Positions 956-64,000 of a stretch of DNA of 64,000 nucleotides are shown here, in pieces. This stretch comes from Muricea muricata (Eukaryota; Cnidaria; Anthozoa; Malacalcyonacea; Plexauridae), in the NCBI GenBank assembly GCA_963855995.1, contig OY979724.1, positions 9,934,532-9,998,531 on the forward strand, read 5' to 3'. A program made the translations under genes and the position numbers. Positions within the stretch are counted from its first letter, which is position 1; every line of letters starts with the position of its first letter. Under the pieces are notes generated by a model. It was not told the origin of the DNA, made no database searches, and was given only the letters and a program-made list of their open reading frames with translations.

Positions 956-956
956 G

Positions 957-9734: not shown

Positions 9735-9935
9735 TTAGTTAAGTACCCGTGTTCCGGTGATTACTGATATTTTACAATTTTAACCATCCAGTCAACATTC
9801 GCAAACCGGAGTACCCGGGATAAACCCACGACTGACTAACTCCTCACATGGGTGTCACGAGTCTGAAGTAAGGATTGAACCCACGACCTCACATGTGATA
9901 GGCGTTTGCTCTGACGATTGCGCCACTTGGCTATT
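9735..9935 (-). mobile_element. tRNA-derived SINE in right arm of palindrome 1
   Basis: Reverse-complement twin of the SINE at 2,931-3,125, at the symmetric position. It carries ACCC where the left copy has GCCC after the B box. Confidence 0.75.
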
Positions 9936-32100: not shown

Positions 32101-35100
32101 GCCAACGTGTAGCCAGTAGCGAAGCCAGCCCGACAATTTGGTCATGCTATGCAAATTTAAATCATTATCATTATTCATTTCTTTAGAAATTGATTCCTTA
32201 TACGGTTTATAAACACTTAAAAATTTGCATTTGTACGATCAAATGTCAGGCTGGCTTCGTCATTGCTTGCAACAAGTCAGCAGATCACAATGCTGAGACA
32301 TTTACATTTCAACAATAGGACAATTTCTATAGTTTTACAGGACCTCGTATACTGTACTTTTAAAATTCGAGAATTGGGACATCATTTGCTCTAGATGCCC
32401 TATTGTCAGAATATGGATAACTGTTATCGATTAGAAAACAGCGATTTATACCAGTTGTAATTGTTGCACTGTAGGTGTAGTTAATTTCCATTCTTTAATA
32501 ATATTCATATTAAAATATAATTTTGTGGAAACACCACGTAAATTTATCATCGCAAACTAATTTAATTATGAATTTACGTAGTGTTTCCACAAAATTATAC
32601 TCTAATTCGATATTCACCTAGCAAACATACAAGAAACATAATCTTCATACTTAATATACTTACTTATCACTATGTTGTAATATTCCGAGCGACGTTTGTA
32701 AGGTTGATTTCACCACGGTGTAAGCACAAGCAGATACGCCAGTATCACTTGCAACGACTAGAAAACTCGCTGTTGACTGCAGGCGACTGAGGCAAGCAGA
32801 GCTGGCTGATCTCAATGCTGATGCAACGCCTGTGAAGTCCCTGAGAGGTTTTTCATCATGCATTATTCTATATTTGGTATCCCAAAAACTTAGTTGATCT
32901 AAATAGCACGAAAAAGTTCTTGGTTAATTAATAGATCTATATGTAGTTTATCATGACGTTACTTCTAGATGATCTGAAAACACGGAAAAGTACTGGCACT
33001 ACAGGGTGTATAAAAAAAACGGAGCCCATCTTTTGTGTCTAATTATTTCTAAATTACTGAAGCTTATAGCACAAGCTTTTGATACGGTACAGTTCAGAAC
33101 TGTTTTAACTAAGATGTACGGACTGGGCTTTTCAAAATCATTTCTGCACTGGGTGATTAATTATCTTACAAACAGACAACAGCTGGTACAGGTTAATGAT
33201 GAGAAATCTAGTCTCCTCACCATAGAATTTGGCGTACCACAGGGTTCAGTTCTTGGACCGATGTCCTTCAACCTATATGTTGCAGACTTACAGGAAAAGC
33301 TTCAATTACCTTCTTATCAATACGCGGATGACACATCGTTTTACTTTCATTCAAAAGTATGCGATCTAGACTCGGCTGTACAAGAGGTTAATGATGGCAT
33401 AGCACGATTGGTTGATTACTCTCAGTGCTCTAACTTAGCACTGAATTCCTCCAAAACTGATTGGATGTTATTTTCCACATCTCAGATGGCACGTGCTCAT
33501 GATCTAGGCGATCGTACGTTCAGTATTAAATGTGGGGACAAATTACTTGATCGAATACGATGTAAAAATCTTTTAGGTGCTCACTTAAATAAGTATCTAT
33601 CATGGTCTTTACATATCGACTCTTTGCAAACTTCGTGTTACGGAATTTTAGCAGCATTGAAGAAGTTGAAGAACTTGGCGCCCTTCCATGTAAGAAAGAC
33701 GCTCGTTGAAAGCCTTGTCCTTTCCAAAATTGACTATGCTAGTCCTGTATTCTACCCATTGCCAGTATATCAACAAAAGCGGCTTCAACGCCTTCAAAAC
33801 GCATGAGCAGGTTTTGTTTTAAGGAAATTTGCAAGACAGGAAGACCTTGCCACCTTGAATTGGCTGAGTATCAGTAAGAGGATGGATTTTAATATTCTAA
33901 AATTAACATATAAAGCCTTGCATGATGATCCTTTTCCAGAATATTTAAGACTATCGCTACACTGTGTCAATGCATATAGGCTAAGATCTTCTTCTGCACC
34001 TGTCCTAAGTATTCCTAAGGAGTCAGGAACTTTTCAAGACTCAGCTGCAGCTACTTTTAACAAACTTCCTGTAGAAATCAGGAATATTAACAATTATAGA
34101 TCTTTTTGTCATTGTATAAAAGAATATCTTAAAAATAGTGAATGATTCCAATTTGAAATGTAATCGGATTAACATTCTTTTTTAAATTCGTAATTCTCGC
34201 TAATATAGATTGTTATATATTTTAATGTAGATAGTTTTACAGGTGAAGAGCCATTCTGTAATGGATATACTGTGAATAAACCATTATTATTATTATTATT
34301 ATTATTTTGCACTTGTTTTAAACCACGTTCTTTTCTCTTTCGAACAAGCCGTAATTCGTATTTTAACTCCCAGTAACGTATGTGCTATGACAAATTTATT
34401 AAAAGCTATCGATTTGAGATGCCTTTCAATTATGCAAATTCACTATGTCTTTCATGGTCGCCAGTTAAATTTTAATTTTTTCGCTAATTACATAAATGCT
34501 ATTTCTGTTAAACTTAATAAAACTTGTTACAAAGCTTTACAGAAGATAACGGACCGTTAACGTGCACTACGAATGGATAGTTCAAACTTGTATCGACGTC
34601 ATGATAATGAATATTGACATTATGCAATTTCGACAACATTGTACACGCGCGGATAAACAAAACGGTAATTTCGATCATTATTTTGGCATAAATCTAAGGT
34701 TTTTGTTAAAGTAAACGGCCCGTTATCTTCTGTAAAGCTTTATAACAAGTTTTATTAAGTTTAACAGAAATACCATTTGTGTAATAAGCGAAAAAATAAA
34801 AAATTTAACTGGCGACCATGAAAGACATAGTGAATTTGCATAATTGGAAGGCATCTCAAATCGATAGCTCTTATTAAATTTGTCATAGCACATACGTTAC
34901 TGGGAGTAAAAATACGAATTACGGCTTGTTCAAAAGAGAAAAGAACGTGGTTTAAAACAAGTCCAAAAGGTCCAAAATTGTGCTATAAGCTTTAGTAATT
35001 TAAAAATAATTTGACACAACAGGTGGGCTTCGTTTTTTTTGATACACCCTGTAGTTGTGAAATAGAAATCCATTTTTCGAGGCAAACTAGCAAATTTCTC

Positions 35101-38100: not shown

Positions 38101-41100
38101 ACGGAAAATTTCCCGCCACTTGTAAATACGGAAATTTTACGTATCCTTCGGGCTTTTGACATTGCTATATTATAAAAAAAATATAAAACATTTTTCCGTG
38201 TTGATATACAGTTATATCAATACTCGTGGAAATTGGAAAAACTCGAAATTGTGTGAATACACTCCGCCCTTTGGGCGTCGCGTTTCCACACAATTTCTCA
38301 TTTTTCCAATTTCCACTAGTGTTGATATAACTGTATATCATCACGGAAAAATGTTTTATATTTCTTAAATATCACTGTCTCTCTATATATAGGATGAAAC
38401 TAAGCTATAGGACTGAAATTTAAGTAGTAATATAGGTACCGATCAACCCTTTTTTTTAGGGCGCCGCAAGGGTACCGCAGGGCGCCGCAAGCCTCCATAG
38501 GGCGCCGCAAGCCTCCATAGGGCGCCGCACTAATTAGTATGCGAGATTATGATTGGTCAAACAGCGTACGTACACCCCGTGACGTACACCCCGTGACGTA
38601 CGCTGTAGCCGCGCTCTGATTGGTTGAAAAGCGTACGTACTCCCCGTGACGTGAGGTTGCGTGAGGCTGCGTGAGGTTGCGTGAGGTTGCGTGAGGCTGC
38701 GCAAGCCTTCACAGGGTGCCGCACTAATTAGTATGCGAGATTATGATTGGTTGAACCGCGTACGTACACAAGCCGTGACGTACACTATAGCCGTGCTCTG
38801 ATTAGTTAAAACAGCGTACGTTCATCCCGTGACGTACGCCATAGCCGCGCTCTGATTGGTTAAAACAGCGTACGTATACCCCGTGACGTACGCCATAGCC
38901 GCGCTCTGATTGGTTAAAACAGCGTACGTTCACCCCGTGACGTACGCTATAGTCGCGCTTTGTTTACATTGTCTGCATTCTTTCAACAATAAAAAGGGTT
39001 TCATATTTCATATGTCGTGTTTGTGTTGTGTAATATAGTCTAGCTATTATGTGTCGCATTATATGACCGTGTATTTTGTTTGGTTATTTTGTCGCACAGT
39101 ATTGTTTATGCCGGAAACGGGCAAAGATATCGATATCTCCGGATACTATTCAGAATATGTTTAGTACCTTAGTTAAAAATTTAAAGAAAGAAGTACAGGT
39201 GATATTTTGCGAGTAAGAAGGATTTATATCGTCATTTTAGTATATGCAGCATAACAGGCTCTATCACTATTGCATCATGTAGCTATGTGGCAAGGGATGG
39301 TTAAAGCATGCAAGATTTTGAAGTATCCAGAGTCATCGGCGATGCACGGAGACTACTTTGAAACAATGTTTGATATGTCTTGTTTCATTTGGTTTCAGCT
39401 GTATTCCGAATCCCAAAGAACAGTGTGTATTAACAATCTTATTGACTATATTATTCGCGTGTGTAAATTAAAATTCACATCAACTGTATGATGTATTATA
39501 AATCATTTTAAAACTTGCTATATACTATGCATATTCTCTGTGGTTGTAGTATAAGCAAAATCACCAATTGGTTACCGCTATTCAATCGAGAAATTATGAT
39601 TTTTAATTTTGAAGACATTGCATAAGTGAATATAAGTTCTGCGCGATGAACATCATAACAACTGCTCATAACAACTCTTAAGCACATCCTGATATACTAT
39701 ACTATTCAGAATATGAATATGAATTTAGATCCGAATTATTAGGAATGCAATAGCATGGGCTTGTGCGTTTTCCTGCGACGGGACTCCCGGGACCTGATTT
39801 GTCCCTCCACGGGACTTTTTGTCCCTCCACGGGACTTTTGTCAAGAAATAAATCTTTATGAGCACATGCTCAAACAGCATGAGCACTTGCTCATACGCTC
39901 ACAATTGCTCATGAGCACCTGCTCATCAACTTGCTCGTGAGCCATCGCATTAATATAACCCTCGAGGGATGACACCAGACTTAGATATGTATTTGATAAA
40001 TTTATTAAAAATTGAAAAGAAAAGGAGACTTTGTTCATTAATTCTACAAAGTATACTTTATTAACACGCTCATGTAGGGAACAGTTAATCGGCCGCATCA
40101 TCATTTTCCTTTGTAAAACTATAATCTTTTAAAAGTCTTCTTATCAGAAACTTTCTCTTATCAATGGCAGCTTCCATAGCTTCTTCTGGATCAAAGTCAT
40201 CGTTTTTCATCAATGCATTTTTTGTCTGCATTATTTTTCTATGTATTGGATCGTTTTTAAGTTGTACCATCCACATAAGGCGTTGCATGTAAACGCTTTC
40301 TAGTTCTTTCTGAAGTTTCGGCAAAACATTGGAATATGCTTGATCTCTTGCAGTTTGCTCATCTAAACGTCGCTTTGCTTCTTCAATTAATGGTAGCCAA
40401 GGATCCAACTGCTCTTCGTTTTCCCCCTCATTGTCGGTTGCCATTAAACTTTCGGACTCACTATCAATAGAATTTGTTGAAATATTATCTTCGAAATCCA
40501 TTTCCTGAATTCTTCGATCCTTTAGTGTACAGTATTCTCTTTCGTGACGGCGTAGGTTGAAGCTGCGATTAAATACTTTCCCGCAAAACTTGCAGCTCAT
40601 TCCGCTAGACTAACTATCCAGAAATGGCCTGTTTTTGGGAAGCGCTGTAATTTTATGAGCAAATTAATGAGCAATTGCTCATTAGCAGTCAGCGTATGAG
40701 CAAGTGCTCATACCGTTTGAGCAAGTGCTCATACCGTTTGAGCATGTGCTCATAAACATTTATTTCTAGACAAAAGTCCCGTGGAGGGACACAAAGTCCC
40801 GTGGAGGGACAAATTAAGTCCCGGGAGTCCCGTCACAGCAAAACGAACCCACGCCAGCCTTAGGATCTTAAAATAATTTGAATATATAATGTTAGTGTTT
40901 AGATCTCAAAGAACTATATATATATTAATCTACCTTATGAGCAAATGAGCAAGTGCTCATGAGCAATTGTGAGCATATGAGCAAGTGCTCATGAGCAATT
41001 GTGAGCATATGAGCTAGTGCTCATGAGCAATTGTGAGCATATGAGCAAGTGCTCATGAGCAATTGTGAGCATATGAACAAGTGCTCATGCTGTTTGAGCA

Positions 41101-44100
41101 TGTGCTCATAAAGATTTATTTCCAGACAAAAGTCCCGTGGAGGGACGCAAAGTCCCGTGGAGGGACAAATCAGGTCCCGGGAGTCCCGTCGCAGCAAAAC
41201 GTCCAAGCCCATGCTAGTGCAATCCCAATAATTTGGATCGCATGAGTATATCAAGATGTGCTTAAGAGTTGTTATGAGCAGTTGTTATGATGCTCATCGC
41301 GCAGGACTTATATCAATTGGTTGCCCCTTTTCAATCGAGAAATTATGTTTTTTTTTTTTTTGTTTTTTTTTTTTTGTTTTTTTTTTGTTTTTTTTTTTTT
41401 TAAGACATTGCATAAGTGAATATAAGTCCTGCGCGATGAGCATCATAACAACTGCTCATAACAACTTTTAAGCACATCTTGATATACTCATGCGATCCAA
41501 ATTATTGGGATTGCACTAGCATGGGCTTGGACGTTTTGCTGCGACGGGACTCCCGGGACCTGATTTGTCCCTCCACGGGACTTTTGTCTGGAAATAAATC
41601 TTTATGAGCACATGCTCAAACAGCATGAGCACTTGTTCATATGCTCACAATTGCTCATGAGCACTTGCTCATATGCTCACAATTGCTCATGAGCACTTGC
41701 TCATATGCTCACAATTGCTCATGAGCACTTGCTCATTTGCTCATAAGGTAGATTAATATATATATAGTTCTTTGAGATCTAAACACTAACATTATATATT
41801 CAAATTATTTTAAGATCCTAAGGCTGGCGTGGGTTCGTTTTGCTGTGACGGGACTCCCGGGACTTAATTTGTCCCTCCACGGGACTTTGTGTCCCTCCAC
41901 GGGACTTTTGTCTAGAAATAAATTTTTATGAGCACATGCTCAAACGGTATGAGCACTTGCTCAAACGGTATGAGCACTTGCTCATACGCTGACTGCTAAT
42001 GAGCAATTGCTCATTAATTTGCTCATAAAATTACAGCGCTTCCCAAAAACAGGCCATTTCTGGATAGTTAGTCTAGCGGAATGAGCTGCAAGTTTTGCGG
42101 GAAAGTATTTAATCGCAGCTTCAACCTACGCCGTCACGAAAGAGAATACTGTACACTAAAGGATCGAAGAATTCAGGAAATGGATTTCGAAGATAATATT
42201 TCAACAAATTCTATTGATAGTGAGTCCGAAAGTTTAATGGCAACCGACAATGAGGGGGAAAACGAAGAGCAGTTGGATCCTTGGCTACCATTAATTGAAG
42301 AAGCAAAGCGACGTTTAGATGAGCAAACTGCAAGAGATCAAGCATATTCCAATGTTTTGCCGAAACTTCAGAAAGAACTAGAAAGCGTTTACATGCAACG
42401 CCTTATGTGGATGGTACAACTTAAAAACGATCCAATACATAGAAAAATAATGCAGACAAAAAATGCATTGATGAAAAACGATGACTTTGATCCAGAAGAA
42501 GCTATGGAAGCTGCCATTGATAAGAGAAAGTTTCTGATAAGAAGACTTTTAAAAGATTATAGTTTTACAAAGGAAAATGATGATGCGGCCGATTAACTGT
42601 TCCCTACATGAGCGTGTTAATAAAGTATACTTTGTAGAATTAATGAACAAAGTCTCCTTTTCTTTTCAATTTTTAATAAATTTATCAAATACATATCTAA
42701 GTCTGGTGTCATCCCTCGAGGGTTATATTAATGCGATGGCTCACGAGCAAGTTGATGAGCAGGTGCTCATGAGCAATTGTGAGCGTATGAGCAAGTGCTC
42801 ATGCTGTTTGAGCATGTGCTCATAAAGATTTATTTCTTGACAAAAGTCCCGTGGAGGGACAAAAAGTCCCGTGGAGGGACAAATCAGGTCCCGGGAGTCC
42901 CGTCGCAGGAAAACGCACAAGCCCATGCTATTGCATTCCTAATAATTCGGATCTAAATTCATATTCATATTCTGAATAGTATAGTATATCAGGATGTGCT
43001 TAAGAGTTGTTATGAGCAGTTGTTATGATGTTCATCGCGCAGAACTTATATTCACTTATGCAATGTCTTCAAAATTAAAAATCATAATTTCTCGATTGAA
43101 TAGCGGTAACCAATTGGTGATTTTGCTTATACTACAACCACAGAGAATATGCATAGTATATAGCAAGTTTTAAAATGATTTATAATACATCATACAGTTG
43201 ATGTGAATTTTAATTTACACACGCGAATAATATAGTCAATAAGATTGTTAATACACACTGTTCTTTGGGATTCGGAATACAGCTGAAACCAAATGAAACA
43301 AGACATATCAAACATTGTTTCAAAGTAGTCTCCGTGCATCGCCGATGACTCTGGATACTTCAAAATCTTGCATGCTTTAACCATCCCTTGCCACATAGCT
43401 ACATGATGCAATAGTGATAGAGCCTGTTATGCTGCATATACTAAAATGACGATATAAATCCTTCTTACTCGCAAAATATCACCTGTACTTCTTTCTTTAA
43501 ATTTTTAACTAAGGTACTAAACATATTCTGAATAGTATCCGGAGATATCGATATCTTTGCCCGTTTCCGGCATAAACAATACTGTGCGACAAAATAACCA
43601 AACAAAATACACGGTCATATAATGCGACACATAATAGCTAGACTATATTACACAACACAAACACGACATATGAAATATGAAACCCTTTTTATTGTTGAAA
43701 GAATGCAGACAATGTAAACAAAGCGCGACTATAGCGTACGTCACGGGGTGAACGTACGCTGTTTTAACCAATCAGAGCGCGGCTATGGCGTACGTCACGG
43801 GGTATACGTACGCTGTTTTAACCAATCAGAGCGCGGCTATGGCGTACGTCACGGGATGAACGTACGCTGTTTTAACTAATCAGAGCACGGCTATAGTGTA
43901 CGTCACGGCTTGTGTACGTACGCGGTTCAACCAATCATAATCTCGCATACTAATTAGTGCGGCACCCTGTGAAGGCTTGCGCAGCCTCACGCAACCTCAC
44001 GCAACCTCACGCAGCCTCACGCAACCTCACGTCACGGGGAGTACGTACGCTTTTCAACCAATCAGAGCGCGGCTACAGCGTACGTCACGGGGTGTACGTC

Positions 44101-47100
44101 ACGGGGTGTACGTACGCTGTTTGACCAATCATAATCTCGCATACTAATTAGTGCGGCGCCCTATGGAGGCTTGCGGCGCCCTATGGAGGCTTGCGGCGCC
44201 CTGCGGTACCCTTGCGGCGCCCTAAAAAAAAGGGTTGATCGGTACCTATATTACTACTAATTTATGACCTATGCTAACAAGAAACTGGAACAAGCAACCT
44301 TTATTTTTGAGCCTGGCCAATAGTTGTAAATTAGAAGCATAATATTGCAAAAAAATTCCAGTGCATCTCTCTAGAGATTGCTTTTTGCTTTTGATTAAGA
44401 AGAGACTGAATTACTGTATTGTTATATTGGATAAGAACCATTAGATATTCAGTTGTATTTTCTCTTATTTCAGAGGCACATGAAAGCATGCAAAATAAAG
44501 GAGAAATTGGAAAACGCTTCCAAAACTTATTGGTAGGTTGTAGGCACTGCAGTACAACAGTGCTCTCTCTCTCTCTCTCGATGAATAAATGAATGTTTGC
44601 AGTCGTCAAGCAAACGGCATGATGCGTTCATAACGCCTGCTCCGGCTTGATGTCTGATGATAACAAGTCTGCTGCAAATCATCAAAAATCTCGATGCAAG
44701 TTGATTGTCAAGACTTCTTATCCACAAGCTATCAGTGAGAGCAAATTGTTTGAACAATTTGCAGCTATAGTCTGCAAATATCATGTTGTGTATGAATAGC
44801 ACTTTGGCGGAACAGGTTTTTTCAGGGCCCAAAAACTCAATCTTCAATCGATCAAAACTATTAATCATATACATTTATAATGAGCTAATTTATAGACCAC
44901 TGCATTACCTCAGATGCGAGTATTTGTGAAAACCACACGTCACTATCTGACGTCATATGTGTTCCACACGCCAACATCCTGTTAAAAATGTAAAATTGCA
45001 GTAAATGAATGAGTTGTTTAAATATTTATGACATCTTCATGGCCAAGCCATGGAGGTCGTTAGAGTTTAGCTGGCCACTTAAAAAGTTAAGCGATTGCTG
45101 ACTCACTTATTTGGTCAAACCAATTAATGCAGTAAGCTACAAAGGAAATCATTGCCGTGAAGCAGTCTTTATATGTGATAAAACACACGTGGATTTCCAT
45201 AGAACTTTTGCGTCAAATTTCTCGGCTTATACAACATCTATATTGAAAATTCTTTCGCAAACAAACTGACAAGATGGCTATAAAATGGATCGTTTTCGAA
45301 GCTATTTAAAATAATCGCAATTCATGCTTTATCAGAATATAAATGTGATAAAGCACTCCTGCTCGTACATTAAATAGTACTTAAACTTCACAGAGCGAGC
45401 ACAAAGTTGCAAACAGGAGCATAACAGGGGCCCTTAGCCTAGAAATGATAAGACTTTGCTGACAAATACTAGCCCAACTGACCATAACGAAAAAGATGGC
45501 TGCATGTACATTTTACCAGAATGTATTGCGGGCATCAAGCAAAAATGACTGAAAAAAGTTGCCAAGAGAAACGCCCAAGAATAAAAACTTTAACAAAACA
45601 AAGAAAATATGCTCCTCTCTTCAACAGGCATCAATTTGGTTTTTCAAACGACTTCCTAGATCGCAATGCATTCTGGTAAAATGTATATCCGCCATCTTTT
45701 TCGTTACGGTCAATTCCACGAGGAGCCACCATAGATGGTGCAGAGCCTCATCATACTCCAGCCAAGGGAACACACCAAAAACTTCGTATAACTGTTTAGA
45801 TTCGTGGTCTTAGCAGAGCTACCCATTTCAAATGATAATTTTAAATATTATAGTTCGTGGAAGTTATAATTCAACCCATGCATGGTTGGTGGGGAAAAAA
45901 AGGACCTACCTTTCCTTTGTCTTTGACTTTTTCTTCTCTTTGCCAGCTTGTATCAAAGAAAGAGCTTGGTTGTCTTTGTAGACCAGCACAGGTTTGTGCT
46001 GAAACCTTCTTGATGTGGAAACATAAATTCTCGAGGGTTCATTTCGCAGCTGAAATAAATTTCAAAATAGACTGTCTGGTAGTTTGAAGAGAGTGTTGCC
46101 TTTGCAAAAATGCACAGACTTTATAAACCTACCATAATCATACTAGACAGCAAGAGTTCTTGAACTGTGTCATCCCACATTAACAACCACTGAAACAAAA
46201 TAATTCACCAACAAAGTGGTTTAAGGCAGACAATCAGAGCTTCACAGGAGAGAATAGGGGTGGGTGTACTGGTAGGGGTGGGTGCACTGGTAGGGGTGGG
46301 TGCACTGGTAGGGGTGGGTGCACTGGTAGGGCTGGGTGCACTGGTAGGGCTGGGTGCACTGGTAGGGGTAGGTGCCCTCCCAGCGGTGGGTGCACTGGTA
46401 GGGGTGGGTGCACTGGTAGGGGTGGGTGCACTCATAAGGGTCGGTGCACTCATAGGGGCGAGTACGCTCGTAGGGGTGGGTGCAATCATAGAGGTGGGAG
46501 CACTCATAGGGGTCGGTGATTTGCACTCCTTGTGATTGTTAGGCATGCAGTGGCGTGTAAGTAGTGTACAGTAAGTAGAGAGTGTTATACATAATGCATC
46601 CCAAATTCCTCTCAGAGGATGCTCGTTTTGTGAGCCATATGAGTCACTGTATGCAATCACAGTAGTCGTCCAGTGGTATGACTAGAGCATTAATTTTAGG
46701 TGTGGGGTGTTTATTCATAAGTTCAAGCTCTGTCCGATGAATTTCTTTTGAAATCAATGGCATTTGAAATAAAATCTGCCAGAATGCATATGAATAAACA
46801 CCCCCAATTATTGCTCTAGTCATGCCTGTGGTGTTGCCTGCAAGATGTTTGCACTATTTTCACCATCCTACATAATTATACAACTATTTCAATTAAGATT
46901 GTTTTTTCAAAAGCATAAACTGTGAACCATGAGGGTGCAAGGGATGATGGATTATCACTTATTTAGGCCCTGATAGCAAGCAAATTTGCATCATCAGTTT
47001 CCTATGCACAACAGACGCTGGTTCACAGAAATAATTCCAAGTTGAGAAGTGGAAATATTCAATAATCCATCATCTTATTCATCTCTTGAGCCCTCATAGT

Positions 47101-50100
47101 TTACAGTTCACACTTTTGGAATGATAATCTTTATTGAAATAGCTGCATACACAACAAAAATGAATAATTTGTTGCAATATTGCAATGAGTGAACACTGTA
47201 AACCTCCGATTATAAGCCCTGGGATTATACAAGTTTATATAAACACGAAAACAACCAAAAATTAGTATGCTCAGATAAACAAACAAACATTACTACCAGA
47301 ATTATATGGTATACCTGAAAAGTTGGCTTATACTCGGGGAGGCTTATATTTGGGGGGGGGGTGGTCTTATATTTGGAACGGTGTGAACATTAGTAATTTG
47401 ATGGGCTTATAGACAGGGGGTCTTATATTCAGGGGGAGGGGGATGGGGGGAGGGGGCAGCACTTATAAACTGAGATTTACAGTTAAACAACATAGTTCAG
47501 CATTGTTACACCTGACAAAATTGTTCTTATCATGATTTAACAACTGTGAAGATGTTTGCAGCAAAAACCTCCCTTGCATACATATACGGCAGGCAAAAAA
47601 TATTTCAAACAATTTGGTCAAGATTCAAAACAAAGGCTGCACTGAATTTTTCTGGATGTCTACATTTTAGTAGATATCTGATAACACTATTTGGAACATC
47701 CATAACTGGTTGCCTTGGGAAAACATACCTCATCATCTCTGGTACCATAATAGTGTTCACCATAACATACGACTGGGCAAGTCAATTTCTCATTAGGTTC
47801 AACTGACCAACTGTGAATTATTTTCCGATCTGAAATCTGAAAATAACACAATGTTTACAAAAAATCGCTTTATGTTCAAGCTTGATACCAATGGCTCAGA
47901 CCTGTTTCATATGTCACATTTTACTATTTTAGTTGCATCAAAAGCAATTGAAACAATAAATAACAATGTTAGATTGTTAGCCATCTCATTGTCCATTGTT
48001 TGAATTGCATTTGACATGACTGAAATGAAAGAGGTCTTAACTGGCCAGACCAATAAATGGTTGAATGTGAATGTCTGTAGTGCCTCTTCAATGACACTTG
48101 AAGTATACAACCCCACTAAGCCAGAGGTTGCTAAAATCCCACAGTGCATTCCATGTAAACTCCAGACTGGAAATATGCCAATATTTACTATATATACTAT
48201 TGTGATTTGCTAAATATGCAAAGTGCACATAATGCAGCCATGAAATTATATGTTACCTCAATTCCCTTAAGGCCAAAATTAATGTCAATGTTTTGCCCCA
48301 ACAGTGGGAGCACAGGCATAACCAGCAGGGGTTATTGACATTTTAGGAAAGGTTTTCCTCAATACACATAATCTTCTGAGTCTCTTGAGTGGGTATTATT
48401 CATAAGAAACTTTCTTAAAATGACATTATCCCCTGGTTATGCTCACACTCCCCTGTTTGGGCAGGACATTGATAACTGCATAAAGTTTCTGGCTGATGTG
48501 ATTGAGTGAACTCTATAACACTGCAAAAGCAACCTAATATTTGTCTCATACTTTAGTTTGCTCACATATTCATTCACATATGTGAGGAGGAGAAAACCCA
48601 TGATTCTTACAACAAATGAAAACCAGTGTACATTATAATGACTTTGCTACGATCTGACAATAGTCCGACAAACAAGACTGTTGCTCAGACCTTGACAAAG
48701 AAGGTCGGCCAATATCTTAATAATATTGTCTTATGTCGGGTTAAAAATATACTAGGCATGTGGACGTACCATTATCAGTTGGAAATACGTGCAACAAAGA
48801 ATACAAGTAAACAGCTTCATTTGGGGAATTGTGCAACAATATTGAGTAATTTTGGCCCTGAATGACAATTTCATATGATATAGAGGACAGCTTGCTAGTT
48901 TAGGATTTGAGACCTAAGAACTCTTACACCAAACCGCATTTCATGTATTGCATGCGGGCAATCTCTAGCTTGTATCTAGCAAATCACAATAGTATAATTT
49001 CCGATTTCGGGAAAGTTATATCCTGCCCTGCAGGACGGAAATCCTGTCCCATGGAACCAAAATCTCCTCATGCAAAATGGAAATCCCGTCTAATGGGATA
49101 AGAATCCCTTCCTGTGGGACAAAAAAATTAGTCTCTGGAACAGATTCCTACCGGATAAAAAATTCATACAAATAAACAACTTTTTTCATGAGGTTTTTTA
49201 CGGTTATTACGTGGCGTTCTCAAGTTTGATACTTCGGGGCATGGCCCGACAGTTCAGTAACTGCAGCAGTTATATTATATATGTAGAAATTTAATAAGTT
49301 GGATTGTGGAAGTTTCTGGCTTTACCTCATTATCAGTGAAGTCACATACAGAAATTTTTGAGTGGATTTCAAATTCTGTCAGTGCAATTGTGAAATTTCC
49401 ATGATAATTTTCACCATGATATTAGATAGGGGTGCACCAGAAGTTCCGGAAGCTCAGTTTCGGCCGGAACTTGGATTTTTGAGGATTCCGGTTCCGACCG
49501 GAACCGGCGAAAAATGCACGGCTGGAACCCAACGTTGTTGAGCAGCTTGCTTGAACAACATGGTAAAAAACATTATTATCAATATACTGAAAATATAGAC
49601 TAAATTATACAACTAAGACTGAAGTCCTGGTATATCGTCTCAAATCCTCTCTCAAAGTTTATTAAGTATTTCAGCAACAATTTAACGTAATCACAACATG
49701 TTTCTGTCCATTTATGGCACAGTGTTCATAATGCACTTCTCATCGGAAACCCCCACCACCCCCACCCTGGAGAAGCATGGGGCATATGTGGGGGTAATAG
49801 GGGATTAAACTTTTCTTTGCGCCCCATGGGGTGGGGGCTTAGGTCAATTTCGTCAATTGAGTTCACGATGTCAAATACTGAAAGGATTGACTAAATTCAT
49901 GTGTGATCCAAAATGGCCAACATCCAAGGCACAAAGGTTAGAAAGCTTATTAAATCATGTTTTATTCATGCTATTTATTATTGTTATAGGTGGGCTTTGC
50001 CAGTGCTGCTTGCCCCTATATATGGGGCATTTTCCTATATTTTTCTTCAGATTTCTAATCCCCCATGTTTCCCCGGGGTGGGGGTGGTGGGGGCTTCCGA

Positions 50101-50645
50101 TGACAAATGCATAATCAATACTGCTATTTTAATGTACCAAGGTTTTATACGCATGTGAATCCCTAGCTCGGTAGTTTCTTGGTGCATAAAGTCAGTTCCG
50201 GTTCCAGCCGGAACTTACAATATCGGTTCTGGTGCACCCCTAATATTAAACCTGCTAAAGTGTACATTTCATCTGTCTCTAATATGAAATGCACAAATTT
50301 GGGTGCAATTATAGAATACCTGGCCACACAAAGTTAGGGTTAGGGTAAGTGTTAGGGCTTGGGTCAAGTCTACGTTAGAGTTCATGCTAGCGTTATTTAA
50401 ATAAACTGGTCAGGTATTCCATAACTACTCCCAAAAAGTCAAAACCACGTGGCCAACGTGGGCCGTGAAATGATTTTACAAACAGCATTTCCTCAGGAAA
50501 AAAGGACAATACTTACATTATACACGAGAACTTTATCTGTAAATGTCAAGATAACATGGTCGTTCTTTGAATGCCCTTCGACGCCGATAAGTTCAGCTTC
50601 TTTTGAAATTTTACACAATTCAAAACATTCGCCAAAAGTCGCCAT
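26065..50645 (-). CDS. NOL11: NOL11 homolog, nucleolar protein 11 (complete, 20 exons)
   Basis: Encodes a nucleolar factor that, in animals, works with the UTP4-containing t-UTP part of the SSU processome in pre-rRNA transcription and early 18S processing. Seen: 20 exons with GT/AG junctions join in a consistent phase into 1,992 nt (663 residues plus stop). Exons (high to low): 50645-50517, 47836-47729, 46189-46133, 46049-45910, 44978-44909, 37620-37543, 37426-37360, 36320-36202, 36140-36068, 32829-32664, 32073-31908, 31620-31537, 31028-30928, 30014-29969, 29382-29303, 28554-28456, 28348-28270, 27590-27489, 27033-26926, 26184-26065. Recalled family matches: SDRKIIHSWSV and LTCPVVC near residues 45-67 (beta-propeller start), SDGGVYKTEF at 218, LLQDCLFDL at 470, VLDWAALTL at 589, AYSIE near the end. 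The vertebrate protein is about 719 residues, so length fits. Start: homology begins at MATFGECFEL, not at an upstream in-frame ATG. Intron 5 carries palindrome 2. Less certain: acceptors of exons 11 and 13 and donor of exon 16. Confidence 0.93.
26293..26694. mobile_element. MITE with ACTGTGCGTCTAC ends, copy 1 (NOL11 intron 19)
   Basis: Left ACTGTGCGTCTACTATAA and right TTATACAGTAGACGCACTGT. Its interior (AAAATCGTTCA, ACACAGCCTGTACTCAGC) recurs in the copy at 35,404-35,660. A lone end lies at 25,034. Confidence 0.75.
26926..27033 (-). CDS. NOL11: NOL11 exon 19 (residues 589-624)
   Basis: Encodes VLDWAALTLNAHFTQLIVIP and then EAQTLLVNLHKVI, the counterpart of [27 protein letters not shown] acceptor and GTCAGT donor. 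Confidence 0.95.
27144..27345. repeat. Dispersed repeat rich in CATCAAGCTTG / TTGATGCAAG (copy 1)
   Basis: Runs of ACAAGTCTGCTGCAAATT-like and TTGATGCAAGTTG-like words. Related segments lie at about 30,330-30,540 and 44,600-44,740. Non-coding; the overlapping open frames are not conserved between copies. Confidence 0.6.
27489..27590 (-). CDS. NOL11: NOL11 exon 18 (residues 555-588)
   Basis: TTGTTTAG acceptor and GTAAGT donor, phase 0. Encodes FFMKFLLYIIKCW to LSYTQ, matching TLFLKYLYFLYLKC and PTLNQ. Confidence 0.88.
27761..27916. mobile_element. MITE in NOL11 intron 17
   Basis: AAAGAGAGGTTCTGATTTCG and CTTCC face GGAAGTCAAATCTGAACCTC and TTT. 156 bp, non-coding. Confidence 0.75.
28270..28348 (-). 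CDS. NOL11: NOL11 exon 17 (residues 528-554)
   Basis: Encodes SLVLSHSINEAFLQTSLRKL, matching [20 protein letters not shown]. The acceptor (GGTATCAG) lacks a good pyrimidine tract. GTAAGT donor. Confidence 0.82.
28456..28554 (-). CDS. NOL11: NOL11 exon 16 (residues 495-527), acidic linker
   Basis: TTGCCAG acceptor. Encodes a short acidic, Ser-rich linker (CDDDVFPTSKNTDIWDE) where the vertebrate protein has a longer disordered insert. Two donors keep phase, ending the exon at 28456 or 28465. Confidence 0.7.
28850..29086. mobile_element. MITE of AACCCTGGGTTAA / GGGTTAGTGCTAACCC family
   Basis: GGGCCAATTGCTC with AACCCTGGGTTAACAC faces GGGTTAGTGCTAACCC and CAATAGCCCC, in NOL11 intron 15. A relative with GGGTTAGCACTAACTC starts at 54,988 in SMG1 intron 1. 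Confidence 0.65.
29303..29382 (-). CDS. NOL11: NOL11 exon 15 (residues 469-494)
   Basis: TTTTAG acceptor and GTACGT donor. Encodes GLLQDCLFDLNGISESTLV and then DCLKFVL, very close to LLQLCLQQFPDIPESV and ACLKIFL. Confidence 0.93.
29453..29625. mobile_element. Foldback MITE in NOL11 intron 14
   Basis: GTTCTGGCCTGATGAAAACA and GCATTGAACAATGTTTTGCT face their near-complements ending in CAGGTCAGAAC. Confidence 0.8.
29969..30014 (-). CDS. NOL11: NOL11 exon 14 (residues 453-468)
   Basis: 46-nt exon with a TTTACAG acceptor and a GTACGT donor. Encodes RCFPKFFSLVLENNDI, aligning with SLCPDLMEIALKKKDV. Confidence 0.82.
30638..30830. mobile_element. Intact MITE, GGCCCTGTC...GGTGCAATTTTTCTTGCAA family
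   Basis: GGTGCAATTTTTCTTGCAAC faces TTGCAAGAAAAATTGCACC, with TTTGCCAATATATTTTC near the centre. 193 bp in NOL11 intron 13; intact version of the element at 19,368. Confidence 0.85.
30928..31028 (-). CDS. NOL11: NOL11 exon 13 (residues 420-452)
   Basis: Encodes YFITSIFERCFKEKKLW then RIIVKTRVL, matching TVTGLLERCK and QLIQTHVL. The CTCTCAG acceptor fits phase; a TCGTAG acceptor 20 bp upstream would add residues but break phase. Confidence 0.8.
31537..31620 (-). CDS. NOL11: NOL11 exon 12 (residues 392-419)
   Basis: Phase 0 exon encoding SKDDETENELLCRVLDSKK, matching the KDSEKHIEVEVRKFLALK helix of the family. GTTTAT donor. Confidence 0.82.
31908..32073 (-). CDS. NOL11: NOL11 exon 11 (residues 336-391)
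   Basis: Phase demands the GCAGCAG acceptor at 32074-32076; a TCACAG acceptor 14 bp upstream breaks phase. Encodes GVLTVSITTYFVSTLRK, comparable to [26 protein letters not shown] donor. Confidence 0.72.
32521..32594. mobile_element. Short hairpin, TTTTGTGGAAACACCACG family (NOL11 intron 10)
   Basis: TTTTGTGGAAACACCACG and TAAATTTAT face ATGAATTTACGTAGTGTTTC and CACAAAA, flanked by the shared word CAAACATACAAGAAA. Confidence 0.8.
32664..32829 (-). CDS. NOL11: NOL11 exon 10 (residues 281-335)
   Basis: TTCACAG acceptor and GTAAGT donor. Encodes FLVVASDTGVSACAYTVV then TLQTS, matching the family's propeller strand (VAVLGS, CLSVWNIKF, TLQTS). Preceded by the 3.2 kb intron 9 with the nested insertions. 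Confidence 0.85.
33075..34145 (+). pseudogene. Reverse transcriptase pseudogene with one in-frame TGA
   Basis: Encodes the C-terminal RT half of a LINE: AFDTV, GVPQGSVLGPMSFNLYVADL, then the catalytic YADDT box, followed by the thumb and the C-terminal region NKLPVEIRN. A single TGA at 33,804-33,806 (LQRLQNA*AGFVLRKFARQ) breaks the frame, where relatives usually have Cys; the reading continues in frame to the TGA at 34,143. The endonuclease and the RT N terminus are missing, so the copy cannot move on its own. Confidence 0.92.
33075..34306 (+). mobile_element. 5'-truncated non-LTR retrotransposon (RT fragment)
   Basis: Begins exactly at the RT motif AFDTV and ends in an (ATT)n tail, inserted in the left arm of the MITE. 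CR1/L2/jockey-like by motif style; clade not certain. Lies antisense in NOL11 intron 9. Confidence 0.9.
35404..35660. mobile_element. MITE with GCAGTGCGTCTAC ends, copy 2 (NOL11 intron 9)
   Basis: Shares AATAGAAAATCGTTCA, ACACAGCCTGTACTCAGC and TTCCATATCTAAA with the copy at 26,293-26,694; the right end is degraded. Confidence 0.7.
35814..35995. mobile_element. Long hairpin with TTTTGTGGAAACACCATG ends (NOL11 intron 9)
   Basis: Stem words ATAAATCGTCTTTTATT, TTCGGCCCATTC and CAGGCCATCATCAG each face their complements. It shares only its tips with the other members of the family. Confidence 0.85.
36068..36140 (-). CDS. NOL11: NOL11 exon 9 (residues 257-280)
   Basis: TTTTCAG acceptor and GTAAGC donor, ending one base into a codon as exon 10 requires. 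The sequence itself is weakly conserved; phase is the main support. Confidence 0.75.
36202..36320 (-). CDS. NOL11: NOL11 exon 8 (residues 217-256)
   Basis: Takes two bases to complete W217, then SDGGVYKTEFPEVKKAD, the counterpart of SSDGCIYETLIPI. GTAAGA donor, phase 0; followed by a very short 61-bp intron. Confidence 0.9.
37360..37426 (-). CDS. NOL11: NOL11 exon 7 (residues 195-216)
   Basis: TTTTAG acceptor and GTAAGT donor. Encodes ESKILRCSLIEEDGES, matching NSRILTKYTLLLGQDEN, and ends one base into a codon. Confidence 0.88.
37543..37620 (-). CDS. NOL11: NOL11 exon 6 (residues 169-194)
   Basis: AATAG acceptor and GTGAGT donor, phase 0. Encodes KVLLVMHLFKESRRLVFIIK, matching the family's PVLIFITEKHGNYFAYV block. 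First exon after palindrome 2. Confidence 0.85.
38023..38175. mobile_element. MITE with TATTATAATATAGCA ends (NOL11 intron 5)
   Basis: TATTATAATATAGCA faces TGCTATATTATAA. The interior includes GTGTTTACTAAACTC and GTAAACACGG. Immediately followed by another hairpin. Confidence 0.6.
38176..38366. mobile_element. Perfect hairpin MITE beside palindrome 2
   Basis: ATATAAAACATTTTTCCGTG, TTGATATACAGTTATATCAA and GTGGAAATTGGAAAAA face near-perfect complements around CCGCCCTTTGGGCG. Confidence 0.85.
38458..38560. repeat. Tandem GGGCGCCGCAAGCCTCCATA repeats, palindrome 2 left end
   Basis: About four units of a 20-bp GC-rich word containing the palindrome GGCGCC. The mirror copy is at 44,121-44,223. 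Confidence 0.9.
38560..38960. repeat. Subterminal ~56-bp repeats with TGACGT and ATTGG motifs, left
   Basis: About six units built from CCCCGTGACGTACGC, TAGCCGCGCTCTGATTGGTT and ACAGCGTACGT. TGACGTAC resembles a CRE and ATTGG a reverse CCAAT box, so the array could serve as a promoter or a protein-binding platform. Mirrored at 43,721-44,121. Confidence 0.85.
39560..39945. repeat. Palindrome 2 repeat module, outer copy (left arm)
   Basis: Contains TTCAATCGAGAAATTATGAT, GACATTGCATAAGTGAATAT, then ACGGGACTCCCGGGACCTGA, two GTCCCTCCACGGGAC words and GAGCACATGCTCA arrays. The same order recurs at the centre (41,317-41,630) and, reversed, on the other side of the zinc-finger gene (40,640-40,850). 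Confidence 0.8.
40085..40600 (-). CDS. C2HC zinc-finger protein of palindrome 2 (left copy)
   Basis: Mirror twin of 42,081-42,596 with an identical 171-residue translation, also read from the centre outward. The ATG at 40,600-40,598 is followed by an intact frame to the stop at 40,085. Two intact identical copies imply recent insertion or ongoing arm-to-arm conversion. Confidence 0.8.
   Translation of the reverse strand: MSCKFCGKVFNRSFNLRRHEREYCTLKDRRIQEMDFEDNISTNSIDSESESLMATDNEGENEEQLDPWLPLIEEAKRRLDEQTARDQAYSNVLPKLQKELESVYMQRLMWMVQLKNDPIHRKIMQTKNALMKNDDFDPEEAMEAAIDKRKFLIRRLLKDYSFTKENDDAAD
40925..41100. repeat. 32-bp self-palindromic units (GAGCAAGTGCTCATGAGCAA), left
   Basis: Four full units, each joining TGAGCAAGTGCTCA and TGAGCAATTGTGAGCA, which are themselves palindromic. 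The right arm has three. This extra unit plus one extra 20-bp GTCCCGTGGAGGGAC word accounts exactly for the 52-bp offset between the arms. Confidence 0.9.
41313..41420. repeat. Palindrome 2 spacer with interrupted T tract
   Basis: 108-bp non-palindromic centre with about 55 nt of T broken by single Gs (41,347-41,401). The flanks (TTCAATCGAGAAATTATG, GACATTGCATAAGTGAATAT) match the outer module at 39,560, so the T tract has expanded where that copy reads ATTTTTAATTTTG. Confidence 0.9.
42081..42596 (+). CDS. C2HC zinc-finger protein of palindrome 2 (right copy)
   Basis: 171 residues from ATG (42,081) to TAA, uninterrupted and intronless. Residues 3-24 form a CX2CX12HX4C zinc finger (CKFCGKVFN ... 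HEREYC) with basic residues (NLRRH), suggesting DNA or RNA binding. Residues 32-65 are acidic and Ser-rich. Residues 67-160 are mostly helical and charged, with DPWLPLIEEAKRRLDEQTAR, a Met/Leu helix (YMQRLMWMVQLKNDPIHRK) and EEAMEAAIDKRKFLIRRLLK. I have the impression that similar DPWxPLIEEA ... KRKFL proteins occur in many invertebrate genomes but cannot confirm it. Inferred role: binding the element's own repeats. Confidence 0.8.
   Translation: MSCKFCGKVFNRSFNLRRHEREYCTLKDRRIQEMDFEDNISTNSIDSESESLMATDNEGENEEQLDPWLPLIEEAKRRLDEQTARDQAYSNVLPKLQKELESVYMQRLMWMVQLKNDPIHRKIMQTKNALMKNDDFDPEEAMEAAIDKRKFLIRRLLKDYSFTKENDDAAD
44909..44978 (-). CDS. NOL11: NOL11 exon 5 (residues 145-168)
   Basis: Takes up the split codon (AG+G) and encodes MLACGTHMTSDSDVWFSQI, matching the family's ISDEEVIKWTKF region. 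The GTAATG donor opens the 7.3 kb intron that contains palindrome 2. Confidence 0.82.
45483..45712. mobile_element. MITE, GTAACGAAAAAGATGG variant, copy 3 (NOL11 intron 4)
   Basis: ACCATAACGAAAAAGATGGC faces GCCATCTTTTTCGTTACGGT, with TTTTACCAGAATG inner repeats. A diverged relative of the copies at 13,717 and 19,405. Confidence 0.85.
45910..46049 (-). CDS. NOL11: NOL11 exon 4 (residues 99-144)
   Basis: TTATTTCAG acceptor and GTAGGT donor; ends two bases into a codon. Encodes PVLVYKDNQALSLIQA followed by a lysine-rich stretch (KEKKKSKTK). Confidence 0.88.
46133..46189 (-). CDS. NOL11: NOL11 exon 3 (residues 80-98)
   Basis: 57-nt exon with a GTTTCAG acceptor and a GTAGGT donor. Encodes WLLMWDDTVQELLL, aligning with the propeller strand read as VLRIWNNE in vertebrates. 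A C-rich minisatellite (on the coding strand) begins about 66 bp upstream of its acceptor. Confidence 0.85.
46256..46520. repeat. 18-bp minisatellite ACTGGTAGGGGTGGGTGC
   Basis: About 14 units, the last four diverged (ACTCATAGGGGTNGGTGC). All six frames stay open because the period is a multiple of three; the frames are not genes. Lies in NOL11 intron 2; the strand facing SMG1 is G-rich. Confidence 0.95.
46674..46826. mobile_element. MITE in NOL11 intron 2
   Basis: GTATGACTAGAGCATTAATT with GGTGTTTATTCATA faces TATGAATAAACACC and AATTATTGCTCTAGTCATGC. Confidence 0.75.
46884..47142. mobile_element. Foldback MITE in NOL11 intron 2
   Basis: CTATTTCAATTAAGATTGTT and ATGATGGATTA face TAATCCATCAT and AATCTTTATTGAAATAG. 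Confidence 0.75.
47729..47836 (-). CDS. NOL11: NOL11 exon 2 (residues 44-79)
   Basis: TTTTCAG acceptor and GTATGT donor, phase 0 on both sides. Encodes ISDRKIIHSWSV through TCPVVC, the best conserved N-terminal block. Confidence 0.93.
48295..48462. mobile_element. Hairpin MITE in NOL11 intron 1
   Basis: GGCATAACCAGCAGGGG and TGACATTTTAGGAAAG face CTTTCTTAAAATGACA and CCCCTGGTTATGC. Confidence 0.75.
49427..50242. mobile_element. hAT-like non-autonomous element with 8-bp target duplication
   Basis: TAGGGGTGCACCAGAA faces TTCTGGTGCACCCCTA. The flanks ATATTAGA (49,419-49,426) and ATATTAAA (50,243-50,250) form an 8-bp duplication with one mismatch, as hAT elements make. No transposase. A second element is nested inside. 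Confidence 0.85.
49741..50105. mobile_element. Nested element with CATCGGAAACCCCCACCACC ends
   Basis: CATCGGAAACCCCCACCACC faces GGTGGTGGGGGCTTCCGATG inside the hAT-like element in NOL11 intron 1. The interior has further G-rich inverted words. Confidence 0.7.
50517..50645 (-). CDS. NOL11: NOL11 exon 1 (residues 1-43)
   Basis: Starts at the ATG at 50645-50643 and ends in VLVYN before a GTAAGT donor, phase 0. An upstream in-frame extension is open to 50780 but lacks family similarity. Confidence 0.9.
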
Positions 50646-51285
50646 ATTGAAAATTTGGAAAGTCAGATGTAACAGAGATACTTCATGTAACACTCCGTAC
50701 TGAGTTTGCACAGGCCCTAGAGTTTGTGCCGGACCGGACAGAGGGAGGGCATTGTTTGGTGCATTCCCACTAATTCCCACTAGCTAATAAATGGCAGGTC
50801 GAAAGCTCGTCGGTTTCAATAAATTTTACGATCAGAGAACGTTTTCTGAAACTTAGGTATATGTCAATGAAATTTTTGTGAACGCTTGTCAATTCACATG
50901 AGAAGTAAATAAATACGTACAAATTCAGTAGGATTTCAACACAATGATTCCACATACTCGTTAATTGCTACTAAAAAATTGCCATGGTTGAATTGTGACA
51001 TCGTGCGCTTTCTGAAAGTCCGAGATGGAGGAATATTAGTGTCTTCGTCCCTTGTCCTTCAATATTTCAGAAACAAAACAATCCAAAATTGAACTTGAAC
51101 CCGACCACGATTCGTAATTAACACAAACCCCTGTTTGCAAATTATTGATTATAACCATTTTTTTAAGGTAAAATTTTTTTTATTTGAACCGGTGATTGGA
51201 ACAAGATCACTAAAAATTTTGTTAGTGAGTTTCGCAGTGGTACAGGCTTTGCTAAAAAATTAGCTAATCTTCATCCCATAACATT
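50646..51285. other. Upstream region of NOL11
   Basis: Holds the 5' flank and probable promoter of NOL11 in AT-rich sequence. No TATA or initiator could be assigned confidently. The SINE-like word GTGGTACAGGCTTTG at 51,238 marks the first unit of the array interrupted by the telomere-like tract. Confidence 0.45.
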
Positions 51286-51575
51286 AATCTTACCCTAACC
51301 CTAGCCGTAACACTAGCCCTAACCCTAGCCCTAACCCTAGCCCTAACCCTAGCCCTAGCCCTAACCCTAGCCCTAACACTAGCCCAAACCCTAGCCCTAA
51401 CCCTAGCCCTAACACTAGCCCTAACCCTAGCCCTAACCCTAGCCCTAATCCTAGCCCTAACCCTAGCCCTAACCCTAACCCTAACCCTAACCCTAACCCT
51501 AACCCTAACCCTAACCCTAACCCTAACCCTAACCCTAACCCTAACCCTAGCCCTAACCCTAGCCCTAACCCTGAT
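51286..51575. repeat. Interstitial telomere-like array (CCCTAA)n / (CCCTAG CCCTAA)n
   Basis: About 75 bp of pure CCCTAA (51,473-51,548) is flanked by a 12-bp higher-order variant alternating CCCTAG and CCCTAA, with occasional CACTAG. A small GTTAGGGTTAGGG patch also lies at 50,336 in NOL11 intron 1. Confidence 0.95.
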
Positions 51576-52130
51576 AGCCCTGACTGTGGTACTGGCTTCG
51601 GTGTGAATTACCAGTTGGTATAGTTCAGGTCTGCTGAAAGTCATTTGCGAGAATTTTGGGTTTAAATACAGCAAAAAAATAGTTAAGGTCAACAATTCAC
51701 ATCCCAGGTTTAAACATGAGCAAGTGGTACGTACATTACGAGTTGGTTTGGTTCAAGTTTGGCTGAAGACATGCTTTTGCAATAGTTTTGGGTTAAAACG
51801 AACAAGAAATTAGTTAAAGTCAAGAATTTGCATCCCACACAGCTCAAGCATAAACCTGTGATGTAGTGGTACAGGCGTTAGGTGTAGGTTTCTAGCTCGC
51901 CTAGTGTTCAAATCACGTTGAAGTCATTCGCAACTTTTCAAGCTTAAAATAAGGAAAAAAAATAGTGAAAATCAATAATTTACAACCCCTTCCTGAAGTA
52001 TGAACGTGTGGCGAGGTGGTAATGGCTTTGGTTTCAACTACCAGTTGGTCTGGTTCAAGTCTTGCCGAAGTCATCTGGAAAATTTTTTTTGTTTGAAATT
52101 AAAAAATAAAATATTTATAAGTCAATAATT
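51576..52130 (+). repeat. Tandem tRNA-like (SINE-like) units, ~130-155 bp
   Basis: Four diverged units each carry a GTGGTAC/GGCTTTGG A-box-like word, CCAGTTGG, a B-box-like GGTTCAAGTC and then GCTGAAGTCATTTGC; starts lie near 51,590, 51,725, 51,870 and 52,015. A partial unit precedes the telomere-like tract at 51,238. Confidence 0.7.
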
Positions 52131-54169
52131 TACATCTCATAATCATTATCAAAATTAAATAAAAACAACATAATAGTCCATGCAAAAATAAACCATATAA
52201 TCCAACCCTCAAACCCTTAAATTGCAGGTGAAAAGAAATTTTTTATTGCGTGATGTGCAATAACTTTTAAAACTATAACTCTGGTTCTTTTATATTTTTT
52301 TGTTACAGACGCTAATTACATCTCTACGAAGTCACTGATTTCATTTTCAGTGTTGTAATTTCGAACGAAGGGAAGACTAAAAGAGGACCCCAGACCCTGC
52401 CTCGTCCCCAGGCGCCTGATAAGCCTAAGCTTCAGATTCAACCTGATTCTGTAATGTAGTTGATTACTTTTAAAATATGATGCGTTTTAGTATCACTGTC
52501 AAAGTGTTTTCTAAATTTTAGACTTTATGAATAAAAGTGAATCATTTTCAACCGATATGGTTGAGGTAAATCTAACCTTTCGTTCTTAAGAATTAGATTG
52601 GGATTTGATTTCGTGTTCAAATCATAACTCTTCTAAATAAATTCTTTACATGGTTGTATGTCAGAGAGTAAGAGATTCGCTGAAATAGGGAGAAAACTAC
52701 GGAAAAAAGGTTTGAAGTAGATATGGCGCGACCTACGTGTGCGTAAACTTTGTGGTTCGAATGTTTTGTGCACTGGTAAATAGTGAAAATTTTTTTTAAA
52801 AATTTTTGTGAAAATGCCACGTAAGTTTATTATCGCAGAGCGTTCGATACTGATGTAGATCCGAGCTTACGGATCGAAAGCTCTGCGATAGTAAACTTAC
52901 GTGGTGTTTCCACAAAATTATATTTTAATTTGATGTTCACCATGCAAACATACAAGAAAGTGGTGATTTTTATTTTAAATTATTAAGTTTTTTTCTTTGA
53001 AGTTTTACCCCTGTGCGGTTACCCCACAAGCGCCCCATGAATTCCCGCAATCACGCGACAAAAAATCCAAATAGCGTTTCACGCAAGAAAAAAAAGTTAA
53101 TCTCGCGTTCATGCGGGGGAAAAAATACCTCTGTCACTGTTGAATTTGATGTCGTGGCATTAGACATCGAGCAAATCGAGCATGAACAGAAAATGGGACT
53201 TATGGTGTGCTTTCAACACTGGAATAACCAAACAATATTCTGACCAAATATTTTGTTTTAATTTTAACTTCCAACTGAAAAGCATATTCAACAGGATTAG
53301 CATGTGCAACTAACTTTCTTGTTTTTTGAATTAAAATTTTTACATAGATCGAGGCGTTGAACATCTAAATCAACTCGAGAACATAAAACTCCTTCATTAA
53401 TTTGCGTATCCAAATACTCAGTTCTAATGAACATAAATCCGCATGAAAAACTTTACAAAGTTCGAATTTAAAAGTTTTGCTTCGACATTTGTACATTTGT
53501 ACATGTCAATTTTTAAAAAGTGTAGGCGATCTATTACCTTAAGATAGTTTAACATCAAAGTTTGTTTATATTCCTTGACTTTGTATTAATGCAATTTTCC
53601 GGCCTCAATTTGTTAATTTTGGCAAAAGTATAAAACATCAAAACGACTTTCATTGACGGCCATGTTGAAAAAAATGCCAACTAGTAAACAATGCCTCATA
53701 TCTACTGGTTAAGCAACCAATCAAAATGCTTGAAAACTATTATTTACTAAAGAAGTTATGCTAGTTCTTATTATTACAAAAAACTACGGTTTTTGGAAGT
53801 GACAACAATGTAAGTGAATTCGAATTGAGCATATAAGTTCAGCATATAGATTCATGCAGAGAAAATGTATTCCGAACCATGGCAGAGGAAATCATTTTCC
53901 AAGCGACTTTTCCGTTCCCTGAAACAGACTACTAATTATATATGGTTTTCGAGAAAAAATCGATTTGGAAAAAGCTACTGCTCATCGGTACAGTGTGATC
54001 CATACAGATCAGAGTAGGGTCTACAATGGTCGTCACCAGGCCCTATCGTTTTAAAAACCGAAAACTTGAATTGTACTATTAAAATGGCGCCGTATCAGCA
54101 AATTTTAAAAATCGATTTTGAGCTAAAATAACGAGAATGCTAGCCCGTTTCATGATGCTATGAAGTGTC
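52131..54169. other. Rest of the NOL11-SMG1 intergenic region
   Basis: AT-rich and without a supported gene apart from the hairpin at 52,803-52,918. The short ORF at 53,013-53,243 is basic and unrecognised. Probable SMG1 5' UTR and promoter sequence lies around 54,060-54,169. Confidence 0.45.
52803..52918. mobile_element. Hairpin, TTTTGTGGAAACACCACG family, intergenic copy
   Basis: TTTTTGTGAAAATGCCACG with TTATTATCGCAGAGC faces GCTCTGCGATAGTAAAC and CGTGGTGTTTCCACAAAA, followed by CCATGCAAACATACAAGAAA as in palindrome 1. Confidence 0.8.
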
Positions 54170-63795
<9,626 letters not shown>

Positions 63796-64000
63796 GTAAA
63801 GTTAACGAGAGAACTAACGTTACCAGTGTCGACAGTGCCGTCGAAAACACACAGCAGCATAGCATCGTTTACCAGCGAAAAGATACAAGAAGAACTACTC
63901 TGACGTTTCGAGCACTTGGTCGGGAAGGGCCTATGTTCGAAACATATTTCTGCCTGTATCGTTCAGGCAAGAGTATGCCTATGCTTTACCACGTTGCCTG

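Follow-up and report, generated by a model that had tools for sequence, protein, structure and literature searches.

What kind of element consists almost entirely of two mirrored arms, each carrying the same zinc-finger gene? The question is raised by a locus of the cnidarian Muricea muricata (assembly GCA_963855995.1, contig OY979724.1, positions 9,934,532 to 9,998,531), a stretch of 64,000 nucleotides called here the window and numbered from its first letter. Self-comparison of the window confirms that the palindromic element is real and delimits it to 5836 bp at 38423-44258; a first-pass annotation, made from the letters alone, had described a clean and complete element at 38424-44257, and the true boundaries lie one base further out on each side. 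Its description of a nearly perfect palindrome stands: the outer 2334 bp are identical between the arms, the first mismatch falls at arm position 2335, and a gapped alignment of the two arms (about 2.9 kb each) contains only two substitutions (40757/41924 and 41266/41467), together with length differences of one 32-bp and one 20-bp tandem-repeat copy. The arms are separated by a non-palindromic, T-rich and single-copy centre of 106 bp. This pattern is compatible both with divergence by two substitutions since the origin of the arms and with arms kept alike by copying between them. We consider it somewhat more probable than not that the element is a non-autonomous, self-complementary, snap-back-like satellite with ends of the Maverick/Polinton type.

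Near-identical palindromes are a known hairpin artefact of long-read sequencing, and the presence of a second large palindrome at 1-12838 of the same window could be taken to favour an assembly artefact here too. However, both ends of the element stop at the same base, the left and right flanks are unlike apart from the 6 bp that are exactly duplicated, and the number of repeats is not the same in the two arms; on these grounds we reject the artefact as hardly credible.

The flanks and tips indicate the affiliation of the element. An exact AATTTA borders the element at either end when its tips are taken as AGTAGT...ACTACT (AGTAGTAATATAGG, AGTAGTAATATAGGTACCG), and 6 bp is the longest flank match, lengths of 7 to 11 bp giving none. 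In intact vertebrate Mavericks the target duplication is 6 bp long and the ends have the form (AGT)2//(ACT)2, the commonest, or (AG)3//(CT)3 (PMC8097293). Because the 6-bp duplication and the AGTAGT/ACTACT tips match this signature, the ends are likely of Maverick/Polinton type, the motif being one documented in vertebrates and the host here a cnidarian. By chance, two random 6-mers match with a probability of 3.35e-4 and two 3-mers with a probability of 0.020 (window 13000-63900). AGTAGT occurs in the window at 2.6e-4 per position and strand, and its count (33, versus 27.6 expected from shuffles) is not above chance. Among 15 smaller self-palindromes listed (hits of at least 100 bp), 12 were tested by nearly the same procedure, and none had a 6-bp flank match, the longest being 4 bp.

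The TAA flanks described in the first-pass annotation are present on both sides, in a frame shifted by one base, and would fit a non-autonomous PIF/Harbinger-type element with tips GTAGTAATATAGG and a palindrome produced by recombination. PIF/Harbinger elements make a 3-bp TWA target duplication and encode a DDE transposase and a Myb-like protein, and a TWA duplication alone would lengthen the palindrome by one A:T pair, as is seen. However, this explanation would require the exact AATTTA match, with a chance of about 3e-4, and the AGTAGT motif both to be coincidental, and neither an open reading frame (ORF) of transposase size nor a Myb-like match was seen in the element; we regard it as unlikely. 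For this single copy, a 6-bp AATTTA duplication, the longer match, is the more probable reading of the flanks, and a 3-bp TAA the less probable one.

If the ends are those of a Maverick, the interior is not. Both copies of the 171-residue C2HC gene are intact and identical, as first annotated, and they are the only stop-to-stop ORFs of at least 100 aa in the element; a further 19 ORFs of at least 50 aa lie in the left arm and loop, and the 10 of these scanned against Pfam gave no match. Within this scope we found no protein-primed DNA polymerase B, no retroviral-type integrase, and no capsid proteins, packaging ATPase or protease, while the ORF survey and Pfam scans yielded no DDE transposase or Myb-like match. 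The element is not a Maverick proper, since a search for these defining genes showed them to be absent, and the missing polymerase, integrase and capsid genes suggest that it was mobilised in trans. The earlier observation of a missing transposase holds, no ORF being of transposase size, and movement in trans, as proposed with it, would follow. The same annotation named no standard class with one zinc-finger gene per arm and no transposase; both features are confirmed, and the 6-bp duplication and the tips point to a known class, Maverick/Polinton.

The centre provides a clue to how the palindrome arose. Except for a T-run absent from the module, its sequence between CAATTGGTT and AAGACATTGCATAAGTGA follows that of the arm module at 39565-39629 in unbroken order, and this order continues across ATATAAG, where the right arm is entered. 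From ATATAAGTCC onward the left arm, followed in the outward direction, shows the identical sequence, and its junction with the loop at that point is abrupt. Colinearity with the arm module is thus confined to one side, with a break to the inverted arm on the other. We infer a fold-back strand switch because two equal arms and one single-copy loop are what a self-folded strand leaves; an origin by fold-back is supported by the centre, and the process itself would have run as proposed below. The layout is that of a snap-back genome, with one end inverted and duplicated around a single-copy loop. Snapback genomes of adeno-associated virus (AAV), which are symmetric or carry a loop, are the documented analogue (PMC8235507), and the literature searched yielded no usable account of adenovirus snap-back genomes.

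Two other routes to such arms were weighed. End-to-end (inverted) joining of two copies, the ends still being of Maverick type, would yield the same two-armed structure; by itself it leaves a loop colinear with one side only unexplained, although an asymmetric joining could account for it, and we consider this route rather improbable. The arms could also belong to a Foldback- or Galileo-like element, in which the long inverted repeats of a P- or MuDR-type transposon, themselves repetitive inside, would have expanded through unequal exchange. Target duplications of P, Foldback and MuDR elements measure 7-9 bp, as opposed to 6 bp here. Long terminal inverted repeats (TIRs) with internal tandem repeats, given as the most characteristic trait of Galileo (PMC3573991), are indeed present. 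Nevertheless, the tips fit Mavericks, no ORF has the size of a transposase, and near-identical arms around a unique loop suit a single fold-back more than stepwise growth; together with the length of the duplication, this leads us to reject a Foldback/Galileo identity as very unlikely.

Protein-primed replicons initiate inside their end and then slide or jump back, which requires a terminal repetition, and the adenovirus end carries a duplicated GTA (3'-GTAGTA) from which initiation jumps back by three (PMC4974454). The doubled AGT at both tips would suit a jump-back origin, and protein-primed replication of the element is suggested by this analogy. Under the snap-back satellite model, a linear protein-primed replicon related to Maverick would have undergone a strand switch, its nascent strand folding back at the present 41313/41314; the folded strand would then have copied itself to its own end, producing a palindrome with two identical replication ends, as in snap-back defective genomes. 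A helper Maverick would supply the terminal protein/polymerase and the integrase, recognising the AGTAGT ends, while the C2HC protein would act as a DNA-binding regulator on GAG-containing palindromic repeats beside its own gene, setting either gene expression or the copy number of the element.

These repeats are concentrated in the inner arm. TGAGCA/TGCTCA occurs 39 times per arm, i.e., 13.4 per kb versus 0.52 per kb in 12901-38100 plus 44701-64000, and TGAGCA is the most frequent 6-mer of the arm. Its palindromes lie at 39.6-41.3 kb, on both sides of the gene, once inside it and in the inner arm, and include seven ATGAGCA-NN-TGCTCAT pairs; none sits at the tips, where the repeats of the terminal half kilobase (mirrored at 43722-44224 in the right arm) are of a different kind. 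GAG ranks first among 32 triplets in the inner arm, with a 2.1-fold enrichment. The gene in each arm is in addition flanked by inverted copies of a module, giving the arm a nested palindromic layout. Under the zinc-finger recognition code, helix residues R12, N15 and R18 would favour GAG; binding of the C2HC protein to the inner-arm repeats, and hence autoregulation, is a guess. The position of the TGAGCA palindromes, around the gene and away from the tips, gives no support to the earlier idea of a protein that marks or protects its own ends, and we set that role aside.

The 171-aa protein has one finger (C3, C6, H19, C24). Its Pfam matches comprise five zinc-finger families, every one under its curated cut-off (zf-C2H2, E 4.1e-5, 24.2 bits versus 25.2), and its strong sequence matches in PDB are zinc fingers confined to residues 2-33 (among the best 60 of 80). 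In the predicted structure, a poor model (predicted local distance difference test 71.5, predicted template modelling score 0.25), the linker after the finger is acidic and predicted with low confidence, and the C-terminal part would be helical. The database search proposed in the first-pass annotation brought up no relative in NCBIfam or in collections of prokaryotes and viruses, in which misses say little: there was no match in NCBIfam, no pattern match in IMG/VR, none in phage records by tblastn, at least 80 stretches fitting the pattern in GTDB genomes with none confirmed, and eight BFVD fold matches that are not meaningful (best E 0.34). Likewise, the tip and repeat patterns of the element each gave 0 matches in IMG/VR, and one arm had no match among plasmids.

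Several points weigh against a Maverick satellite. The 64-kb window holds one copy only (BLASTN, E up to 1e-5, found no further one) and no helper Maverick. The end motif is documented in vertebrates, where intact Mavericks measure 12.7-24.6 kb and their TIRs 46-1447 bp, as opposed to 5.8 kb and arms of 2.9 kb here (PMC8097293). TAA/TAA is a perfect duplication in the alternative frame; the module with which the centre is colinear is a repeated one of the arm itself rather than part of a known parent element; and no long inverted homology is seen at the fold-back point. GAG, a 3-base word, is readily enriched in repeats, and nothing ties the protein to Mavericks, no relative having been detected in IMG/VR, GTDB, phage records or BFVD. 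One survey reported Mavericks in each mollusc genome that it covered, and values of 1.69 and 1.93 (percent, by our reading of the table) are listed for Mercenaria; both would lend support only for a mollusc host. By their titles and the openings of their abstracts, the papers listed in the literature searches, including PMC8097293, PMC10294476, PMC6431247 and PMC5753468, describe no palindromic or non-autonomous Maverick of this kind.

A wider proposal, which we put forward tentatively and hold to be less probable than not, is that the element represents a stable lineage of self-complementary Maverick satellites, i.e., snap-back genomes replicated and integrated by the machinery of a protein-primed, virus-like helper and persisting in the germ line because they retained or acquired a gene for a DNA-binding protein matched to their own repeats, possibly regulating or interfering with the helper. 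If the satellite reading is right, the snap-back genomes that occur as defective particles of DNA viruses would also be heritable in a eukaryotic genome, fixed there by a Maverick-type integrase. A fold-back in protein-primed replication would then be recorded in the ends and loop, which would indicate that Mavericks, too, are replicated in their hosts as linear molecules primed by a protein. Having a DNA-binding protein of its own, such a satellite would be an obvious candidate for restraining Mavericks.

Coordinates of the palindromic element and its parts in the window
Feature	Position	Strand	Basis
Target site duplication AATTTA, left copy	38417-38422	.	
Left tip AGTAGT, (AGT)2 motif as in vertebrate Mavericks	38423-38428	+	
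Left arm of palindrome	38423-41313	+	self-comparison, gapped alignment
Terminal tandem repeats, left arm (20-, 14-, 10- and 54-bp units; TGACGT and CCAAT-type words)	38457-38966	+	
Module; inverted second copy at 41041-41239 in the same arm, 93%	39728-39926	+	
TGAGCA/TGCTCA array, 3' side of left gene	39859-39925	.	
C2HC zinc-finger gene, 171 aa, left copy	40085-40600	-	ORF and Pfam
TGAGCA/TGCTCA array, 5' side of left gene	40656-40752	.	
TGAGCA/TGCTCA array, 32-bp unit, inner arm	40938-41108	.	
Single-copy centre (loop), T-rich; T-run aside, colinear with arm 39565-39629; inferred fold-back point 41313/41314	41314-41419	.	
Right arm of palindrome	41420-44258	-	self-comparison, gapped alignment
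C2HC zinc-finger gene, 171 aa, right copy; AATAAA downstream at 42619	42081-42596	+	ORF and Pfam
Right tip ACTACT (AGTAGT on minus strand)	44253-44258	-	
Target site duplication AATTTA, right copy	44259-44264	.	

The first-pass annotation had set the element in intron 5 of NOL11. This placement found no backing: the window contains 627 ORFs of at least 38 aa, and NOL11 was matched by none of the 20 tried against Pfam or the two tried against PDB, most of the 627 being untried. Were the intron context true, transcription of the gene across the palindrome and its 2.9-kb arms would also produce RNA able to form a very long hairpin. Rfam at gathering thresholds has no match in the window.

The surroundings hold other repeats. 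The larger palindrome (1-6132 / 6711-12838) has arms of about 6.1 kb lying 578 bp apart, whose alignment shows 14 substitutions and 104 gap columns (98.1% in a separate self-comparison); it holds no stop-to-stop ORF above 130 aa, runs past the left edge of the window, and is either another palindromic element of recent origin, an inverted duplication or a join made in assembly. An imperfect hairpin element of 222 bp (38158-38379), in which 94 of the 112 positions aligned are paired, stops 43 bp short of the main element on its left side, and long imperfect palindromes occur at 34305-34968 (83%) and 60501-60908 (85%), none of the three with a clear target duplication; the latter two are perhaps miniature inverted-repeat transposable elements (MITEs). 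A reverse transcriptase fragment spans 32973-34145 and is interrupted near 33806, the first of the two resulting ORFs matching Pfam RVT_1 with E 2.5e-14, and a dispersed repeat of about 240 bp has three copies, 69-79% alike (13707-13956, 19398-19640 and 45474-45717).

Among known systems, the element resembles Maverick/Polinton (polintovirus) in its (AGT)2//(ACT)2 ends, exact 6-bp target duplication and terminal inverted repeats, and differs in being 5.8 kb long and nearly all palindrome, with one zinc-finger gene per arm and no ORF for polymerase, integrase, protease, ATPase or capsid. With palindromic MITEs it shares a hairpin-like and non-autonomous nature, whereas it is protein-coding, has near-identical arms and is far longer than the small palindromes of the window (98-664 bp). 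Foldback/Galileo elements are similar in their long inverted repeats with internal repetition, but are set apart by the length of their duplication and by their tips, and no related transposase is present in the element. Finally, like the snapback genomes of AAV (PMC8235507), the element is self-complementary, combines a genome end with its inverted copy, around a loop where asymmetric, and relies on functions supplied by others; in contrast, AAV primes by a hairpin and not by a protein, while the present element lies integrated between the two copies of a target duplication, with its gene intact.

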